Positions 1,255 to 49,500 of a stretch of 64,000 nucleotides of DNA are shown one piece after another. This stretch comes from Paramacrobiotus metropolitanus (taxonomy: Eukaryota > Tardigrada > Eutardigrada > Parachela > Macrobiotidae). Location: positions 1 to 64,000 of the forward strand of contig NW_026570339.1 of NCBI RefSeq assembly GCF_019649055.1. Direction: 5' to 3'. Each line of letters starts with the position of its first letter. The first letter of the stretch is position 1. Made by a program: the position numbers and the translations under genes. The notes below the pieces were generated by a model. That model had not been told where the DNA came from. It ran no database searches and was given only the letters and a program-made list of their open reading frames with translations.

Positions 1255-16868
<15,614 letters not shown>

Positions 16869-18251
16869 CCTTAACAACGCCGAAACATTGTTCCAAACAG
16901 GGAATGCGCGATTCGGGAATGACGGGAAGATTGTCCAGAAAACAGGGATCAATCGATAAATGCCAATCAACAAGGGGAAAACAGCTGCCCCCGGCCAAAC
17001 ACAAGCTGAACACACAATTTGGCTGTATGAGCCTGATTAACCCATTACTGCTCCTTGGATGCTTTCTCCGCAATTTCCGCCGAACCCCACGTCACATCAC
17101 GACAGCGGCTAATGCGCGTCAAGACGGGCTACTTGTGCGCCTGTTACGCGCGGGAAGAGTGGGTCCTGTGGGGAAGAGTCTATTAAAAAGTTGTGCTCAA
17201 CTTTTAGCCTTGAGACTTGACGAATGCGATTGAAGTTCAGGCGTGTTTGTGGCTGGCAGCGTGAAAACGCCACAGATCGATCGGCTGCGGAACCGAGTGC
17301 GGGCGTGCCGCGCTGAGGTTGGTTAAAAGGCGGTTAGTGGGCGGATACGTGGGGCGGTTGGGCTGGTGGCAGGTGTTCGTGTCGAGGCGGAGTAATTAGC
17401 GCTGCTAACGGAAGGACAGGCTGACACCGGAAGTGGATGGGATCAGGAGGATGCCTGGATAATTTGACGTCTGGCAGTCACTTCCTTCCCTCAGACACAA
17501 GGACACACCGCCACGCAAGAACGTAATTGCGTTTTCCCAGCTTTTCCACGGCGCGTCTGTGTTGTCGTACTGCAGACAATTAAGTACAGTACGAGTACGA
17601 AGTACAGTTAAATGCGCCGGAAGCGGCCGAATTCCATTGATTGCAATTCCATTAACAAAATGGAAGGACGCGTAGCGCCGTATCAGTGGGTGACGGCAGC
17701 GGAATTGGTATTCCCATGGCTGATGAGTGCACGACGCACGTGTTGTTTTTTTGGCCAGTCGATGCAACTCGCACTGCGCCAGTGAAACCTGAAATGTGTG
17801 TTGACATTTCTCATTTCTGCGCAACATTTGAACAACTCGCGTTGCTACAAGTTAGCAGCAGGCGCGGTAATTTCGCCCGATGGATTGGTGTTATTCATGG
17901 CGTCGCAGGTTGTTTGGATAACGAGCCAGTAAGTAGCAGTGTGAGTGTGGAGCTGGGCAAATCCGTGGAAGGAAACTTGCTACTTGCCTCGATCGAGGAT
18001 CCGCGCCATCTGTCATCCATCTGCAATCTTATCGATTGGCTCCTGGTCCGCTCCATCAACTGCCTCTCTTATTTCCTCGACACCGTTATTCTGTATCCGA
18101 AGGAATTGTTTATTCTGGGAAAGAGCGAGTGACTGGGATAAGCGGGAAGAAAAAGGGGAAGACGTCCCTGTTTACGCAGCTGTGTGTTGTTTTGGATGTT
18201 GTTGTTGTTTTGATTGGGGAGAGGACGTTTGAGCGTCCGTGGGTGCGGGGA
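16869..18251. promoter_or_regulatory. Divergent intergenic region between WDFY3 and CCDC85
   Basis: The start codons of WDFY3 (minus, 16868) and CCDC85 (plus, 18252) point away from each other across 1.38 kb, so both promoters and 5' UTRs must lie here unless upstream non-coding exons exist elsewhere. The sequence is of mixed composition with GC-rich patches around 17,240-17,380. I see no convincing TATA box or conserved motif. Open frames at 17,686-18,132 have no recognisable homology. Confidence 0.45.
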
Positions 18252-19907
<1,656 letters not shown>

Positions 19908-20643: not shown

Positions 20644-21800
20644 TTAATCGTCGCCGCGCCCGGCGAAAATATCCTCCACGTCTTCCTCTTCCTCCTTCTT
20701 TTCTTCCTCTTCCTCCTTTTTCTCTTCCTCCTCTCGGCGTCCTTCACCACCGTCTCCGTGGATTTCTTCCGCGGCGCTTCCTCATCGCGCCCGGCGAAGG
20801 TGTCGTCCACTTCTTCCTCTTTTTCCTCCACTTCCGGTTCCTTTTTCTTGGGCGCATCCTCGTCTCGTCCCGCGAAAATGTCTTCCGCTTCTTCCTCAGC
20901 TTCCGGCTCGGGTGTCGCTTCCTTTTTCTTGACGGGAGCGTCGTCATCCCGCCCGGCAAAGATATCTTCCGCTTCTTCTGCTTCCGGTTCCGGCGCGGGT
21001 TTCTTCTTCGGGACGTCGTCATCCCGATCGGCGAAGATATCGTCCACTTCCTCCTCCGTCTCCTGTTTCTGCACTTTCTTCTTCGGGACGTCGTCGTCCC
21101 GGTTGGCAAAAATATCATCCACTTCTTCCTCTTCCGGTTCCTCTTTTTCTTCCTTTTTTTCTTGGGAGCGTCGTCATCACGATTTGCAAAAATGTCTTCC
21201 ACTTCTTCTTCCGGTTCGGGTTCCTCCTGTTTCTTCTTCTTGGGAGCGTCCTCATCCCGGTCAGCGAAAATATCGTCGACCTCCTCTTCCGGTTCCTCTT
21301 TTTTCTTCTTTTTCGGCGCATCGTCGTCCCGATCGGCGAAGATGTCTTCCACCGGCTCCTCTTCCTCCTCGGCGACGTCCTTGGAGTCCTGGCGTTTCCT
21401 TAGCGCCTTCCGCTTGGCGGTGGCCTCGTCGGCCTTGCCCAGTTCATCCCAGAAATCCACGACTTCGTCCTCTTCCTTCTCCTCGGTTTCCTCCCCTTCC
21501 GCCTCGGCGGGCGGTTGGGATTTCTTCCGCGGGGCGTCCTCGTCCCGGTCGGCGAAGATATCGTCCACCTCTTCCTCCTCTTCCTTCTTTTCCTCCTTTT
21601 TCTTCTTGGGTGCATCCTCGTCGCGGTCAGCGAAGATGTCCTCGACGTCCTCCTCGTCGTCCTTTTTCTCCTCCTCGTCCTTGTCCTCCTTTTTTGGGCT
21701 TCTTTTTTGGCGCGTCGTCGTCGCGGTCGGCGAAGATGTCGTCTACTTCCTCTTCCTCTATGTTCTCCTTATTTTCTTCCTTACCATTTTCATTTTCCTT
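20644..21800 (-). CDS. SH3BGR: SH3BGR exon 4: twelve D-I-F-A-D-R-D repeats
   Basis: The core motif is [V/E]-[D/E]-D-I-F-A-[D/N/G]-R-[D/G]-[D/E]-[D/E]-[A/V]-P-x-K-K, repeated about every 20 to 35 residues and interrupted once by a longer linker containing V-V-D-F-W-D-E-L-G-K-A-D. Copies change gradually: D-R-D in the first five, N-R-D in copies 6-7, G-R-D or G-R-G in copies 9-12. The last copy stops directly at R-G-D-D before TAA. Each copy sets an aromatic-aliphatic pair in an acidic patch before a Lys cluster, which looks like a short linear binding motif. Frame breaks: one extra A near 21690-21695, one missing A near 21154-21160, one missing base near 20730-20737. Confidence 0.85.
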
Positions 21801-24633
21801 CTGCAATGCATTGTATATGTATATACAAAATGTATATAATCGCCGATATATATATGAAAGGTCACTGAAAATGTATATATATACGATATACATAAAAAAG
21901 CATACATATATAGATATACTGATACATGACATCAATCACCGATATATATGAAAGGTCACTGAAAATGTATATATATACGATATTACATATTACATAAAAA
22001 GCATATATGCTGATACATGACACATCACCGGTACATACGAAAGGTCACTGAAAAATATATACGATGATATATAAAAAAGGTCACGCACTTCTCCGTTGAG
22101 GCCCTCCCCGGCGGCGGTGGCCGCAGCGGCGCCGCGTTCCTTCCGCTTCTTCGGCTTCTCCAACTGCAGGAACACCATGAGGTTGTCCATTTCGTTGGCT
22201 TCGTCGAAGGCATTGTAATCCTACGTTGCAAACAATTAAAAATACATAAACGTATACGTAAATGTATGAAAATACATGTACCAAAATGTATACAGACAAA
22301 TTACATATACGAGCGAATTAATCATTCAAAGTCAAAAACAGATTGTTATATACGTATACAAAATATATGTATCAGATGGAATAAGAAAAAGTAAAAAAAT
22401 ACAATGCGATGTACAAGAAAAAAACTACTAAAAAGAATGGAAAATAAATGCATCAAACATGATTGGAAAGGCGAAATTGTTTGGCGGGTTTAAGCGGGAC
22501 TTTTTTGGACGGACCCCGAGGAACTGCTCGTCGATGAAGATCTGCGGCGGCAGCGGCGGATGCCGTGGCGAGTGCTTGTTGGCGTGCTGGAGGAAAAAGT
22601 CCTTCTCCTGCTCGCTGCCGGGCGCCGTGATGTCGATTAAATCGTAGGGCACTTTGTGGCTGTCCAGCACCATCAGCAGCCGCTGCTGGTGCTTCCGCAC
22701 CTGCGATGGCATTCATTCCATTCATTACACAAGTACCGACGCTTCAACGGAGCATATAGATATAGTATGCACTTGTGCTTTTAATATTAGCGCACAATTA
22801 GTTCGCTATAACTGAGCGCGGAGTGACCGGAAGTGACAAGAGATACACTGTAGTACAGGGAAAGGCGTTTGTCCGTGTACCTGCTAACTGCAACAATACG
22901 TTGTTTATCGATAAGCGTCGTGTTGACACTTGACGTACACCGCTGTTGACACTCTTGTCTGTAAAGCGCTTAAATCAACACCGGCGCCGATAAGACACAT
23001 CGTGTAGTTTGTGCCGCTTCTCCCGTCGAAATTAATCCCGACGAATTGACGCGATGCGCAGCAGACAAAATCGTTGAGGTATCATAATTATACAGGTAAT
23101 AGAACTATTCCACACGTACTACTCATTAATATATATAGATATCAGGAATTACAGCAGCTGAACAAATATCCGGTGATTTTTACTGTACATGTACTGTACT
23201 GTACCTGTGGCTGCACGTATATACGTATATACGTAACGTACAGCAATATAAATTGTGCAATGGACGTGTGCTCGTTGAGGCGTAGAGTTACTGTATATGA
23301 TTACCTATTATTCACAATAATGCAGCAATAATGGAGGTACACTGGTGCTTTATTATGATTATCAAGCGCGGTGCTGTTTAGCAGTCTAATGCACTGCACT
23401 CCACTTCCGGTCGCGCTTGTGTGAGGCCCTGACATGCAAACGCAAAGCCGAGTACCAGCAACACGGATGCGCTGAAGGTTTTATTTTATTATTCTAATCG
23501 TAATATAGAAGTATGTACAAGTACTGCTCAAGGTTGCAGCTAGGAAAGTCGATCAGCTAATATATAGATATAGATATACAAATCCGTCGGCACTAATATA
23601 TTACACAGCGCAACGCAGTGCATGAAGATTTCCGGCTCAGTGTTTCTGTATACTCGTGCTGCACGCGTACAACAAGACAGACATCCTCGTAAACAAAACT
23701 GTTTATAACTTGCGGTCCGCTTCGATTCCTGACGCACGTTACGACACCACCCAAATCGCATCCCGTGATGTCGATGCATGATGGTGTTGCGTCGGGATAT
23801 ACAGATATTACATGTACGAGCATACACATAAAGCGTGAATTGCTTATAACTATTATAATACAGTAATAATACATATTACGGTATAGCACCGAGCACGTAC
23901 ATCCGTATTTTTTGATATGTCAGTTTGTATAGTTTTACAATACAGTATTCTAATGTTGATTAATTTTATGTACCGGTAGGTATACTGTGCTTGCAAGCGT
24001 GTACTCAACGTATTGTAAATGTAGATATTGTATGTAATATCAGCCGGTTTGACTGCTGTTCTAGTGGGTTGGTTAATCCAGCTGACCACGAGCTGTCGGC
24101 TGTTAGTGCGGGAAAGGCTGGCACGGTCGGCAGCGATGCTGACCGGAAGCTGACTAGCGTTTACAGGGTGACGACGATGGGAGATGCACGATCATCCCAT
24201 AGCGATTACGCAACACAACACGCGGTCATCGCAAGTGTTTATTAGCAAGTACAACGTAGCAAGATTCGGCGAGCAATGCAACCTGAGGAGCAAGCACAAG
24301 CGTACGCATACAGATAAGCGTGGGCAGGAAGCGCGGTGCAAGCTGCAGCAAGACTAATTTCAAGATGTTTCTGACCGTGAGATCTGGTCGGTAAAATGTA
24401 GGAAAATAAGGATTCTGATCTTCATAACACAACGTAACAACCAATAAACAGTAGAGAAAGGCAGTTAACACTCCTGCTGGTGGTACATGTAGTGTAATTT
24501 CTATTGCTACAATATAAGCAGTTTACTAAATGCATTAATATCTATATTCGGCGCAACTACATTCTACATATAAATATAGCCTGCTCACCTCTTTGCTGGA
24601 GGAGATACCCGATATATACACTTTAATCACCAT
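20644..24633 (-). CDS. SH3BGR: SH3BGR-like thioredoxin-fold protein with a 12-repeat acidic/basic tail (4 exons)
   Basis: Exons on the minus strand: 24633-24589, 22700-22515, 22220-22089, 21800-20644; all junctions are phase 0. Exon 1 encodes M-V-I-K-V-Y-I-S-G-I-S-S-S-K-E, the first strand of the SH3BGR fold. Exon 2 has the V-P-Y-D-L-I-D-I helix-strand, L-P-P-Q-I-F and the loop before D-Y. Exon 3 has D-Y-N-A-F-D-E-A-N-E and L-M-V-F-L-Q-L-E, ending the domain at about residue 105. The redox cysteine pair is absent, as in the family. The remaining 385 residues hold twelve copies of a motif close to V-D-D-I-F-A-D-R-D-D-D-A-P-K-K-K, spaced by Glu/Lys/Pro linkers. Known SH3BGR proteins have only a plain Glu-rich tail. 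Three one-base frame breaks in low-complexity sequence must be corrected to read through. Predicted length about 506 residues. Confidence 0.87.
21830..22080. repeat. Threefold AT-rich tandem repeat in SH3BGR intron 3
   Basis: A unit of about 90 bp, carrying ATATATGAAAGGTCACTGAAAATGTATATATA, appears at about 21843, 21939 and 22030, the last copy shortened. Each copy pairs AAAGGTCACTG with TATA runs. The array fills almost the whole 288-bp intron. Confidence 0.75.
22701..24028 (-). other. SH3BGR intron 1, 5'-distal part
   Basis: The first intron of SH3BGR runs from 24588 down to 22701 (1.89 kb), much longer than its neighbours. Besides the LTR-like repeat at 24029-24511, I see only unique AT-rich DNA with ATATAG/TATACG words. 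The intron's size comes partly from the inserted repeat. Confidence 0.5.
24029..24511 (+). repeat. 483-bp LTR-like repeat, copy 1, in SH3BGR intron 1
   Basis: The element starts TGTA and ends TACA, and is flanked on both sides by ATAT, which fits a 4-bp target duplication. A second, diverged copy lies inverted at 42343-42810 with the same termini. Shared internal blocks include GGTTGGTTAATCCA, GATGCTGACCGGAAGCTGACTA, GAGATGCACGATCATCCCAT and AAAATGTAGGAAAATAAGGAT. It has no open frame. Length, TG...CA ends and lack of coding fit a solo LTR; a non-autonomous DNA element is the alternative. Confidence 0.6.
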
Positions 24634-43513: not shown

Positions 43514-46500
43514 TCACACGCGGAACAGCTCGTTGATCCCGTAGATGGCCACTCTGCTCCAGGCGGATATATCCACACAGCGCAGATCGACCTCGTCCCA
43601 GCATTTCGGTCTTCCGTCCGAGTGAAACCCACTGAACCTGCACAGACAGTAACAGTACTTGTAAGCGTTAGAATCACGCTCCGCTAAATCATACGGAGCG
43701 TTGACTCCATCACTTCCTGGCGATGAAATCAACGGGCGTTCGAAACGAACAGACCGAGGAGACTATGTGTACTTGTACGGCCAAATGGGATCCGCTACTA
43801 GATATTGTATAAAAGTCTATATCCAATTATGACTTACAGTAGAAGGTAGCAGCGAATGCTCTCCCAGTCGGCGGGGTAGTCGAGGGTGCGCTGCCAGCGC
43901 GCGTGGACGGCCGTGACCTTTGCCAGCATCTCCGGCGTGACCGGCGGGAAGTGCTCGTTGACGGCGCACATGAAGCGACTGGTCGTGTGCATTTTGTCGT
44001 CGCTGCAGGGCAGCAGCAGCTTGGGAATGGTGATTTGTAGTTCGTCTACGGCCAGTTCCGGCGAGACTGGCCACTGGGAGAGACGTCGCGTCCACTGGCG
44101 TTCTTGCTCTGGCAGAGGACGCCCGGGCACATCGTCATAACTGCGACCTAACTCAAAGACGTCGTACATGTGCCTACCGAACAGATTGCGCACTTGCCAG
44201 TTGTCCAGCAAGATGAAGTCGCAAGTGCCCTTGTAGTACAGTATCTTATCTGCTGGCTTAAAATGCGCCTGGTGGAAGGGTGTCACTGACAGTACATCTC
44301 GTTGCATGTCCACGTAGTCTTTGAGCACAAGTACAGGCAAACTGATCTCCAGGGCACTGAGTATCGCTTGCAGAAATGCAGGGAAGCCGGGAATGACTGC
44401 TGGCGCGAGGGCTCTTAACAGGGTGAGCGTGACGGTCGCCGAGCTGAGGGAGCGGGTGAGGAGGGAGGCCGCGCGGAAGCAGCTGTCGGAGTCGACTTGC
44501 AGATGCCAGCAGCTCTCGAAGGAGATGCTGACGTGCTCCTGCATCCGGGGATGGCCCAGCAGCAACTGCCATAAGCCACACACCCTAACAAGACACATTC
44601 CTTGTTCATCATTCACAACCACAACTATTCCGTAGACAGTAATTGTCCGATCGAACATTTGCAAAGCTGCTCGCTGGTACAAGCCTGTCGTATTTCTTGC
44701 CTAACAAGTATCTGTCGGAACGGGGAATCTGTCGTTGCGCTACCTGATAGTGTAATGCATATATATGGTGGTCGTTTCACTAGCGCTCACTGACATTCTG
44801 AGAGCTTAAAAAACTACACCTTCACACAAGAAATTAAGCGGCAGGCTTATACAGTACTGACATGCTATGCGGAAGTCGCACCGCGACAACCGCACTAGAT
44901 GACCAAACCTACTCAATCGGTAGAGTGGGAATATGCTCTGGACTCCGTAAGTGGTACTACTGCCTACTTCCGCTAGGTACGAGCGGATTGCTGTGCCTAA
45001 CGAAAGTTACCGAAACCCAAACACTCAGGAACTTCCCAAATGTTTAATCACCAAACTGAACGAACGAACAAACAGAACAGAACAGAACGAGATATGAACT
45101 TCCTTCTAACCTAGAGTCACACGACCTTTCAGCTAGAAACAAGCTCACAGATTTAGTTGAAGTCAGAAACTTCAGACTGATTCGTTAAACCAGAATCATG
45201 GATGGAATTAGCGATGAAATGCGTTAGATAAGAACAGCAAGTCATACGTAACGGAACAGACAACACGTACGTCATAACACGTACGTAATACGCGCAACTA
45301 CGCATAGCGCGTTACCCCCACTGCTACAGAATTAACGTCCGCGTTAATCAAAGCAAACAAACAAACAAAAACCAAAATCAAAGAAAACTTGAAATCCAGG
45401 AAAGTACCGTAATCCTGGAGGATCCTTTTCATCATTCGCGTGTGGAATCCGGGTGTAACGGGGGTTCCAATGGAGGTCCAGGTTGATGAAGTTGGTGTTC
45501 CGTCCAAGTCCTCCGAGGTTCCTGGTTCCACGCGCGTCCGTTATCATCCATCCATCCAAACGTTTCGTATCCAGGTGAGGTTTTCTTCCATCCTCTCCCT
45601 CCGAAGAGCTCGAAGATCCGCAGTCCAACAGACCAAACAACCAGAAATTACCAGCTTTCTGATAAACACTGGTCAAAGCCAATCAATCAGAAAAAACCGT
45701 TCAGAACGGATAAATACCGTTCATTTATCAGCATCTTCAAGACATCAAAAAGTGGATACTTAGTTTCCACTAATTAGTACTGATAATTACCCCCACTGCA
45801 AGTTTGCACATGCAGTCAAACAATCAAACACAGTCAACCACAACCAGATCAGAAGAACCGAACGACGTGGTTCTTGCCCATGATCAAATAAACACAATCT
45901 TTATCATCCAAATTACTTTCGGATGATCGACTCAAATCCCAACTGTGAACTTCTTATCAAACAGCAAGTCAAACAGTAACTGTACTGCTGACAACTGCAG
46001 AATCAAAATGATTTTAAAATCATTTTTACAGATTTCAAACACTGCACCGTAGCACAGCGTTTTAAACATGTAGCTGCCACACCAGCGGCTACGGACAAAA
46101 CATTAAGTACTTTTAAAATTCAGTACTTAATTTCTCCAAACAACAAATTTCTATATCTTTCTGATAGTTGGGCAATCAGCATCCCCTTTTCGCTGATTAA
46201 TCCTGCGGTTATGAGTAAAAGCAAGTTACACTGTCAGTACAATACTGACAATAAAACAGCGGACTCACAACGTAGCAGTCGAAACTTAAACATGAGCACT
46301 ACATTGCTCACATCCCGCTTCCATTTTCCACAATTCAGCATTCATCCCAGGCCAGTAATAATTCCGCAAAACATACTTACGGACTGACCAGTAATCATGC
46401 AAATTACCAGCATGATAACTCTCATGGCAGTCTCGTAACAAGTCCTGGCGGCTAACTTCCGGTACGACTACACGGTGTCTACCGTACCTACCGCCCTTGC

Positions 46501-49500
46501 TACGGTACACAATGCCACGATAAACATGAAAACCTTTCACGTTCTCTTTCTCATCCTGACTCATCTCCGCCTCGGGATTTTCGATCAGGAACTTCAAGCG
46601 CTTTAAGTAAGCACTGTTGCTCTGCTTCCGACGCCAACCCACACGAGCCTGAGCACCCCCACTGCGAAGCGAGTGCCTCGTCGGACAGCGTGCCGAGCTG
46701 AACTGTGACTGGGCGGCTCCGCCCCCACTGCGAGTTTCATCTCCTTCCGCAACTTGTGCACTTTTAACCTGCACATTGAAAGAATTAACTTCCGGCCTGC
46801 GCATTAGAAACGATCCCAAGCTATTACTTTCGGGATTCTTTCCCATCGACTTCTTCATCATGTATGCTTTAATCACCTGATCCGGTGGTTCCGCTGTAAT
46901 CGGCTTACGCGGTTCCGAACTGGTGCACTTCTTTCCCACATGCGCACCGTGACATTTAAAACATATCGGCTGTCCATCTGGAAAATACCGTTTAGCGTAA
47001 TTAATGGTAATTTGCTTACCATTATCACCAACACTCCCATCGGTCTTTTTCGTCTCATCACCAGCAGCTTTAACTGAACTGCTATCTGCATCAGCTGGCT
47101 TCCTGCCACTGAACTGCTTCGAATCAGAGTAACCAGGACCAGGGTTACTATTCCGCAGTTTATACTGCAGCTTCAATTCTGACAAAAATTCTTCAACATC
47201 CGCCACTCTTTTCTCCTCCATGTACTTGAACCAAAAGAAACGGTTCTTCTTTAAACCCTGCTTCAGATAATACACACGTTCAGATTCATTCAAATCTAAC
47301 TTTTTGAACGACGTAGTGAACCAATCCACATACGAGTTCGGTGTATCGTAACTAGTAAAATGACGATCAGCAATCTTATCACGAACTGCCATTAAATCTT
47401 TCTCATCCGAGAAATGTTCCCGGAGCAACTTCTTCCATTCAGACCACTTCAACTTCTTATTAGAATCGTACTTATCCAAGTACCAGGTAAGCGCCGTACC
47501 AGTAAGGCAGCGCGACAGGCACTTACTGATGACGTCACCATCAGACCAACTGTTGTGGTTTTTACAATTATCCACACTCTGGATAAACTGCTCAACCTTA
47601 TTCGTGTCTGTCTTCCCATCAAACTTTTCAGGATACATTGTATCAGTCCTGAATGCACCTTTCATTGCATCAGTAAACTTATCCATATCAAACGGAGCGG
47701 AAACAGTACTACCGCCCTTGGCTTCCTGTTCCTTTAAACGACGATCAAGTTCAGCAACCGTGGCTTCCATCTTGGCCAAAGCAATTGTGCTAACTTCTGA
47801 AATCGTTGGTGAAGGACTACGCGACTCACCCAAACATTCCTGCATGTTATGCGCACGCTCACGTAAATCCAGAAAATTTTCCAGCTTCTGGGTATCTTTG
47901 ACTACAAAGACAGGCTTATGAACAGCACTGTACAGCTTTCGTACAGGTTCAGCCATATCCTGTACTACTACGCTGCGTCGACCTGCTTCAACATGCGGAA
48001 CAAAGATAACGTCATCATTTACTGCATGACGTCCATTATTCTTATCAATTTTCCACTTATCAACAGCAACTTTAAATGCTGTTTGTTCAGCCAGAAAACT
48101 TGCATACTTTTTATTCAAGGCGGCCGTGCCTTCTTGAAAGCTTTTCTGCGCTTTCTCCTTCTCTAACTGGAACTTCTGCCTTTCCAGTTGCAACTTCTCA
48201 CTTTCACTGTTAACATGCTCGAACGCGTCCTGCATCAGCTTTGCATCTCTCGTCCGCATGATAGTAAGCAACTTTAGGTCATCCGTCAACTTTTTTTGAT
48301 GATCAACACTATCATCGTATTTTTCGACCAAATCGTTATACTTTCCGATTACTTCATCATGCTTCAAAGCGAGCGCATGGTATCGCACCTTTTCCGCATC
48401 CAGTTCTTTATGTAACTGATCAACCACAGCAGCGGTTGATGACTCATCGCTTTCCTTGCCAACTTTCTGACTGTAGTGAGCATCAGCGTTTCCATCACGC
48501 TGATCAACAGCTGCCAGTTCCGCATCGCTATCATCATCATCTCCAGTAACAACAGCTGAATAATCTGGAGCATTATTAATCTGCTCCAATACCTTATTCA
48601 TTTCTGTCAGGTCCAAGTGCTTAGTTACCACGGTATCTTTCGCAGTACCACTCAAACCACTGGCAGACAGTGCATTGCCCTCACTGAGTACAACCTGCAC
48701 TCCGCCGCTTTGCTGCACATTCGACCCTGGACGAGCTTTACCGCTATCTGCTGCAGACTGATCAGGCTTTTGTTGGCAAGATACTGCATCCATTTGCCAT
48801 GCAGTTCAGTGCCATACTGCTGATCGTAATCGTGCAAGGTCAGGTGGATCGTTCGACGGGCGGGAATCTTCCTTCCTGCCTGAATCCACTGATCATAACC
48901 TCCAGGTTTTTTACCACCATTAAGGTCATATTCAACCCATTCCTGACTTAATTCTCCAGTACGTGGGAGAACAATTTCCCACTTCTTGCAGAAATCGCCA
49001 ACCTTTTCGTCTTCGGGTAGAAACCACTGCACTGTAGGCGGGCTTAAATAATCCGCCTTCACCAGCATGGCTTCAAACTCTTCAACATTAATCATCCCTT
49101 TTCGACGGGACGGTTTACTTTTTCCCGTTGATGGCTCTTCCGGACCATCCTCATGTCCAGCGGTTAATGCTGATGGTTCAATCACTGTACCATCCATTGC
49201 ACCTGCTTGACAAACAACAGACAAGTAATCCAGGTCACCGAACCCGGATGTAAGTCTGCACAAATAACACGGCTTACGCCACCACTTCTTAGTACACACC
49301 GTACTAATTACCAGTACAAGTACAGGCGGACTCCCGTCCAGCACCTGGCTCGCACTTAGGAACCGTGCCTCGCGTAACCCTCTGAGGTCACTGCGGTACA
49401 CACTGCGGTCTAGCACCTGGTTCTCACTTAGGAACCTTGCCTCACGGGATTCTCTGAGAATCCACGCGGTCAACCAACACCACACAAAACGCCAAAACCA

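Follow-up and report, generated by a model that had tools for sequence, protein, structure and literature searches.

A twelve-copy linear motif array in the predicted acidic tail of a tardigrade SH3BGR protein

The SH3BGR locus

The window, that is, the whole stretch of DNA that was analyzed, comprises 64,000 nucleotides of a contig of Paramacrobiotus metropolitanus. Its minus strand carries a four-exon SH3BGR gene, the exon junctions of which are all in phase 0 and have GT/AG ends (Table 1). On the same strand, a large gene with many exons extends over positions 1255-17000 approximately and resembles the BEACH/WD40 proteins of the WDFY/neurobeachin kind. On the plus strand, a short gene, similar to those of the CCDC85 coiled-coil proteins, lies at about 18250-19907 and converges on the SH3BGR gene. 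Further away, positions 46286-48805 of the minus strand form an open frame of 839 residues, which looks like parts of a retrotransposon gag and integrase. Finally, intron 3 of the SH3BGR gene harbors a 94-base tandem repeat with 2.4 copies (window positions 21848-22061, minus strand).

The initial annotation had assigned the gene to SH3BGR, and comparison with the Pfam profile PF04908 (cut-off, 21 bits) bears this out. Exons 1-3, once joined, match the profile over positions 1-98 of 99 with an E-value of 4.6e-30 and a score of 104.2 bits. The open frames of exons 2 and 3 reach, on their own, 51 bits (E 1.7e-13) and 14.5 bits (E 0.041, profile positions 79-98), respectively, the latter value being below the cut-off. 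Thus, the much higher joined score supports the junctions between exons 1, 2, and 3, whereas the joining of exon 4 to exon 3 is predicted from the phase and the splice signals. With this predicted junction, exon 4 supplies the glutamate-rich C-terminal extension expected of SH3BGR proper. The signature PLPPQIF is found as PPLPPQIF within exon 2. The joined domain contains no cysteine, hence no catalytic CXXC, and its N-terminal loop reads SGISSSKE. The near-complete profile match, the PLPPQIF signature and the lack of CXXC are all shared with the SH3BGR/SH3BGRL family (PF04908), for which the name TPEC has been proposed. As in the tardigrade gene, vertebrate SH3BGR has an acidic tail behind the domain.

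When the genome (169,799,020 bases in 533 contigs) was searched with the PF04908 profile, a single place was retrieved, exon 2 of the gene described here. By this profile evidence, the window gene is the sole SH3BGR gene found in the genome.

Table 1. Positions in the window of the SH3BGR exons, of the motif copies and of the frame changes.
Feature	Positions	Strand	Remarks
SH3BGR exon 1	24589..24633	-	encodes MVIKVYISGISSSKE; donor GTGAGC
SH3BGR exon 2	22515..22700	-	VRKHQQ...PLPPQIFIDEQFLG; carries the PLPPQIF signature; phase 0
SH3BGR exon 3	22089..22220	-	DYNAFDEANEMDNLMVFLQLEKP...GLNGE; last part of the thioredoxin-like domain; phase 0
SH3BGR exon 4	20644..21800	-	acidic tail carrying the twelve motif copies (junction to exon 3 predicted); stop TAA at 20646-20644
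Motif copy 1	21699..21755	-	EEEVDDIFADRDDDAPKKK; first frame
Motif copies 2-6	21155..21655	-	second frame
Long linker, copies 3/4	21353..21529	-	contains EVVDFWDELGKADEATAKRKALRKRQ
Motif copies 7-11	20763..21131	-	frame number equal to that of copy 1
Motif copy 12	20644..20688	-	EEDVEDIFAGRGDD, then stop; third frame
Frame change 1	21690..21700 (near 21695)	-	A6 run
Frame change 2	21154..21160	-	A7 run, the only one and the longest A-run of exon 4
Frame change 3	20727..20740 (near 20735)	-	GA-rich tract

The motif array

Exon 4 contains twelve copies of a motif on the minus strand, from position 21746 to position 20644, which is the number that had been claimed. The unit is about 19 residues long and corresponds to the pattern EEE[VA][DE]DIFA[DNG]RD[DE]D[AV]P[KR]KK. 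The sequence D-I-F-A-D-R-D, by which the array had first been described, is exact in half of the copies (1-5 and 8, i.e., six out of 12), and the others are variants of it carrying N, G, or T: DIFANRD in copies 6 and 7, DIFAGRD in copies 9 and 10, DTFAGRD in copy 11, and DIFAGRG in copy 12, which reads DIFAGRGDD up to the stop codon. Eleven copies can be aligned without gaps over 19 columns, with the consensus given for copy 1 in Table 1, and nine of these columns (E, D, F, A, R, D, P, K, and K) are invariant. This alignment confirms the proposed ordered array within an acidic tail. The I-F pair in an acidic patch that had been pointed out is indeed seen, but the conserved unit is longer and also includes A, R, D, P, K, and K.

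The flanks of the motif vary from copy to copy. Neighboring copies are 72-84 bases apart, except for copies 1 and 2 (100 bases), 3 and 4 (216 bases), and 11 and 12 (131 bases). The 216-base gap reads ...EEDEVVDFWDELGKADEATAKRKALRKRQDSK..., and the linker between copies 3 and 4 possibly consists of a decayed motif copy plus a helix. In an AlphaFold model calculated from the single sequence of the piece with copies 2-6, which is of low confidence overall (mean pLDDT 57.8), residues 69-101 form a low-confidence helix in this linker, with block pLDDT values of 62-66 over most of it. The copies are thus not all strictly held: the R-D step and the KKK end are missing from copy 12, the I of the motif is replaced by T in copy 11, and the linker behind copy 3 may contain the remains of one more copy. 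At the nucleotide level, the coding strand of exon 4 is made up of 71.3% purines, the mean for plus-strand tiles of equal length across the window being 49.9% (sd 3.7).

Selection and history of the copies

Comparison of the copies with each other gives a proportion of synonymous differences (pS) of 0.742 and of nonsynonymous differences (pN) of 0.102 for eleven copies and 13 codons; with all twelve copies and 10 codons, pS is 0.712 and pN is 0.116. These values are uncorrected proportions, rough because the copies are short, and not tree-based. Shifting the reading by one base inverts the picture (pS 0.043, pN 0.312; 11 of the 12 copies free of stops); with a shift by two bases, pS is 0.162 and pN is 0.224 (five of the 12 copies free of stops). 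Meanwhile, third-position identity among the twelve copies amounts to 0.427, to be compared with 0.417 +- 0.031 for random synonymous recoding using the codon usage of the exon; 35.5% of the random recodings reach the observed value. A conserved protein with randomized third positions can be produced by long selection at the protein level and would not result from recent duplication or from homogenization of the DNA. Hence, as judged from the copies within this gene, the data indicate long protein-level selection on the motif. The same combination rules out an origin as a DNA satellite or simple repeat.

Changes from D-R to N-R and G-R had been reported along the array and had been taken to suggest stepwise duplication. 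The residues at this position, D, N, or G, follow each other as DDDDDNNDGGGG, an order that is block-like only. At third positions, adjacent copies do not resemble each other more than others do (p 0.46 and 0.48), and at all positions the likeness of neighbors is slight (p 0.033 for 12 copies, 0.058 for 11 copies). Thus, the changes along the array stand as blocks, but stepwise duplication, by which the copies may have arisen, is not demonstrated. Since silent sites are random while the core of the protein is nearly fixed, no trace of the duplications is left at silent sites.

Frame changes within exon 4

A feature absent from the initial annotation is that the array does not lie in one frame but in three, with copy 1, copies 2-6, copies 7-11, and copy 12 as successive blocks. 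Accordingly, the spacings across the three frame changes (100, 80, and 131 bases) are not multiples of three, and a strict reading of the assembled gene meets a stop soon after copy 1. Two further A6 runs in exon 4 show no frame change.

Introns at the frame changes were considered and ruled out. They would have to comprise one or two bases, as compared with 61, 113, and 1,054 bases for the gaps between neighboring matches of a coiled-coil gene on another contig (C37), which were taken as introns. A generally poor assembly is argued against by other acidic or lysine-rich tracts, those of HSP90 and calreticulin being intact in the parts inspected and contig C4 having an intact acidic frame of 1,527 residues; however, in the sole HSP90 exon measured, A-runs do not exceed five bases. 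The published assembly of Paramacrobiotus sp. TYO, the probable source, is described as built from nanopore R9.4 reads and polished by means of short reads (PMC8277472). The signal of selection is seen in the copies on either side of the first two frame changes as well as in those lying between them. In view of this long protein-level selection, the frame shifts are most likely due to residual sequencing errors.

Occurrence of the motif elsewhere

In the whole genome, the peptide pattern DIFA[DNG]RD has 10 matches, all of them in exon 4, and the reversed control has none. The array is therefore far beyond chance, and the motif-array tail is unique within the genome at the exact-pattern level. 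A protein search of the genome gave nine matches, seven in exon 4 and two, with E-values of 1.6 and 5.2, in the acidic frame of contig C4. With a relaxed DNA pattern, 41 matches were obtained (nine in the reversed control), of which 10 correspond to the array, 12 are located on contig C171, and the remaining 19 are found in other places; none of the five inspected among these 19 is within an acidic array. On contig C171, the stretch inspected, with eight of the 12 matches, is a 238-base satellite whose units are in shifting frames with nearby stops, whereas the copies of the array conserve the protein. In its own right, this satellite (L022, G000:C171:141500-145700) has 17.6 copies of the 238-base unit in 4.2 kb and is apparently noncoding. 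The genome also contains three loci that match trehalose-phosphate synthase (PF00982; G000:C67, C84, and C208), which fits an animal that makes trehalose. A search for lipocalins gave two matches, and the one inspected is an ordinary fatty-acid-binding protein.

Outside this genome, searches of the PDB with the array and with a profile of the motif gave no credible match. In Pfam, the tail retrieved only DUF2895 (E 0.22) and fvmX1 (E 0.14), both below the cut-off. Viral and prokaryote contig collections gave no result either: 293 and 584 stretches matched a peptide pattern in two of the searches, but none was confirmed. In the open-licence literature, nothing joined tardigrades with SH3BGR or its full name, and the titles and abstract openings of the matches listed contain no description of an SH3BGR tail with such an array. 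The passages drawn upon in the study of the family (PMC12827327) describe the extension only as glutamic acid-rich, whereas in the tardigrade tail one conserved motif recurs in an ordered array.

Relationships with known repeats

FAM21 has several LFa units in the disordered tail of an actin-linked complex, the WASH complex; repeats of this type would be expected to bind VPS35 or the PH domain of TBC1D23. The tail studied here had been likened to these L-F repeats, with which it shares a hydrophobic residue-Phe pair amid acidic residues. The resemblance did not hold at the level of the formal consensus, L-F-[D/E]3-10-L-F (PMC10899256), which has no match in the four tail pieces, even with I allowed for L. 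Indeed, the tardigrade unit differs in having one I-F pair, followed by A-x-R-D-[DE]-D-[AV]-P-K-K. A search of the tardigrade genome for FAM21-type families gave no match, nor did its controls. The LFa motif of LKB1 is bound by the PH domain of TBC1D23, and LFa-like binding by the tail would still be possible because residues before the aromatic pair matter in LFa motifs (PMC10899256). From its sequence, however, the tail does not qualify as an LFa array, and FAM21 is an analogy only.

Thrombospondin type 3 repeats are Asp-rich, calcium-binding repeats with the signature D-x-D-G-D-G-V-P. The tardigrade segment [DN]-R-D-[DE]-D-[AV]-P resembles part of it, but lacks the signature Gly, and the first Asp is changed to Gly in copies 9-12. 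The thrombospondin type 3 repeat is absent from the Pfam matches listed for the tail pieces.

In terms of layout, yeast Aip5 is close, as an actin regulator that combines a thioredoxin-fold part with a disordered region. Aip5 binds actin and its disordered region forms condensates under stress (PMC6838200), the thioredoxin fold being its C-terminal part (PMC12827327). The disordered part of Aip5 is thus N-terminal, whereas the tardigrade tail is C-terminal to the domain.

A proposed multivalent tail on a probable actin-capping fold

Human SH3BGRL proteins cap the pointed end of actin filaments through their thioredoxin-like fold, which contacts the last two subunits, and they cooperate there with tropomodulin (PMC12827327). 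Tropomodulin is present in the Paramacrobiotus genome. The tardigrade domain aligns over 99 residues with chain 8iah_Z, an SH3BGRL chain of the spectrin-actin complex 8IAH. In this alignment, only some of the actin contacts are conserved: I39 and T40 are retained and R46 aligns with a Lys, but position 15, an actin contact in all three human isoforms (PMC12827327), is a Glu.

Our preferred explanation, to which we give an even chance, is that the protein combines an actin pointed-end capping fold with a disordered multivalent tail able to bring together several copies of a single partner, perhaps as condensates. The glutamate-rich tail of SH3BGR would have become an array of twelve linear motifs of about 19 residues, set in a disordered chain with patterned charges. 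The thioredoxin-like domain would probably sit on the pointed end of the filament, as in human SH3BGRL proteins, and the tail would provide docking sites, twelve at most and nearly identical, at intervals of about 25 residues. By avidity, these could hold together several copies of one partner or, via that partner, several filaments. The twelve similar sites would also raise the local concentration of the partner at pointed ends, and crowding or stress might lead to condensates. A role of the tail as a multivalent hub or condensate-forming region had been suggested, and the conservation of the motif as protein among the copies fits what a multivalent binding tail would require. Actin binding by the tardigrade protein and multivalent binding by its tail are here proposed by analogy with the systems described above, and we infer that the gene is expressed, that the tail is disordered and that the frame shifts are assembly errors.

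Alternative explanations

The tail might instead be a charge-patterned spacer in which alternating acidic and basic blocks act as a condensate scaffold or a polyampholyte brush. It would then bind no specific partner, and the I-F pair would be no more than a weak sticker. Its composition agrees with this: in the 368 residues of the four in-frame pieces of exon 4, there are 167 acidic residues (102 Glu and 65 Asp) for 68 Lys and Arg; Leu occurs twice, and Met, Tyr, and Cys are absent. The low pLDDT of the modeled piece and the Lys clusters found behind the acidic block in each of the eleven aligned copies also agree with it. However, a generic charge code would not hold A, R, P, and an exact F in all eleven copies while silent sites were randomized. 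We consider this account unlikely, though worth keeping in mind.

If the frame shifts were real alleles or fixed mutations, the gene would be decaying and on its way to losing the tail, and what remained would be the domain with one motif and a short end rich in Arg and Gly. The gathering of three shifts within 1.16 kb, while the inspected HSP90 and calreticulin tracts are intact, would be explained in this way, as would the deviations of copies 11 and 12 in the motif core. Against decay, pN/pS values of 0.08 for copies 2-6 and 0.19 for copies 1 and 7-11, grouped by frame number, show selection in copies on both sides of the first two shifts. In addition, the pieces between the shifts are without any stop, two of the shifts sit at A6 and A7 runs in an assembly probably derived from nanopore R9.4 reads (PMC8277472), and the gene is the only one of its family found in the genome. 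Decay is thus improbable.

Slightly less probable again is a nuclear, histone-binding array. Some H2A-H2B chaperones use acidic-aromatic patches, and in each copy such a patch would be combined with a PKKK cluster that resembles a nuclear import signal and would act as one. P[KR]KK is present in 10 of the 11 aligned copies, with an acidic stretch around the invariant Phe, and there is a precedent in the acidic histone-chaperoning domain described for APLF (PMC9328677). In contrast, the SH3BGR family has been linked to actin (PMC12827327).

Lastly, ribosomal or transcriptional slippage could join the frames in vivo, as two of the three frame changes sit on A6 or A7 runs, but such recoding is very improbable, because the first change is +1 and the second -1, the third itself has no A-run of at least five bases, and three events per exon would leave little full-length product.

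Significance

Returning to the multivalent tail, a more specific version of it can be formulated, in which an undescribed linear motif, in twelve separately evolving copies on the pointed-end capper of an anhydrobiotic tardigrade, would gather a dedicated partner at filament ends, condense reversibly on drying and protect the filaments. Taken as a whole, this version has little chance of being correct. What we have in hand is a real and unusual tail on an ordinary member of the SH3BGR family; the tail is probably functional, although its sequence in this assembly has a quality flaw.

As a precise repeated code kept, by all indications, by selection, the tail makes the question of binding testable with one synthetic peptide of 19 residues. 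It would also connect multivalent scaffolding with the actin pointed-end cappers, a class recognized only recently, in a group of animals known to survive desiccation.
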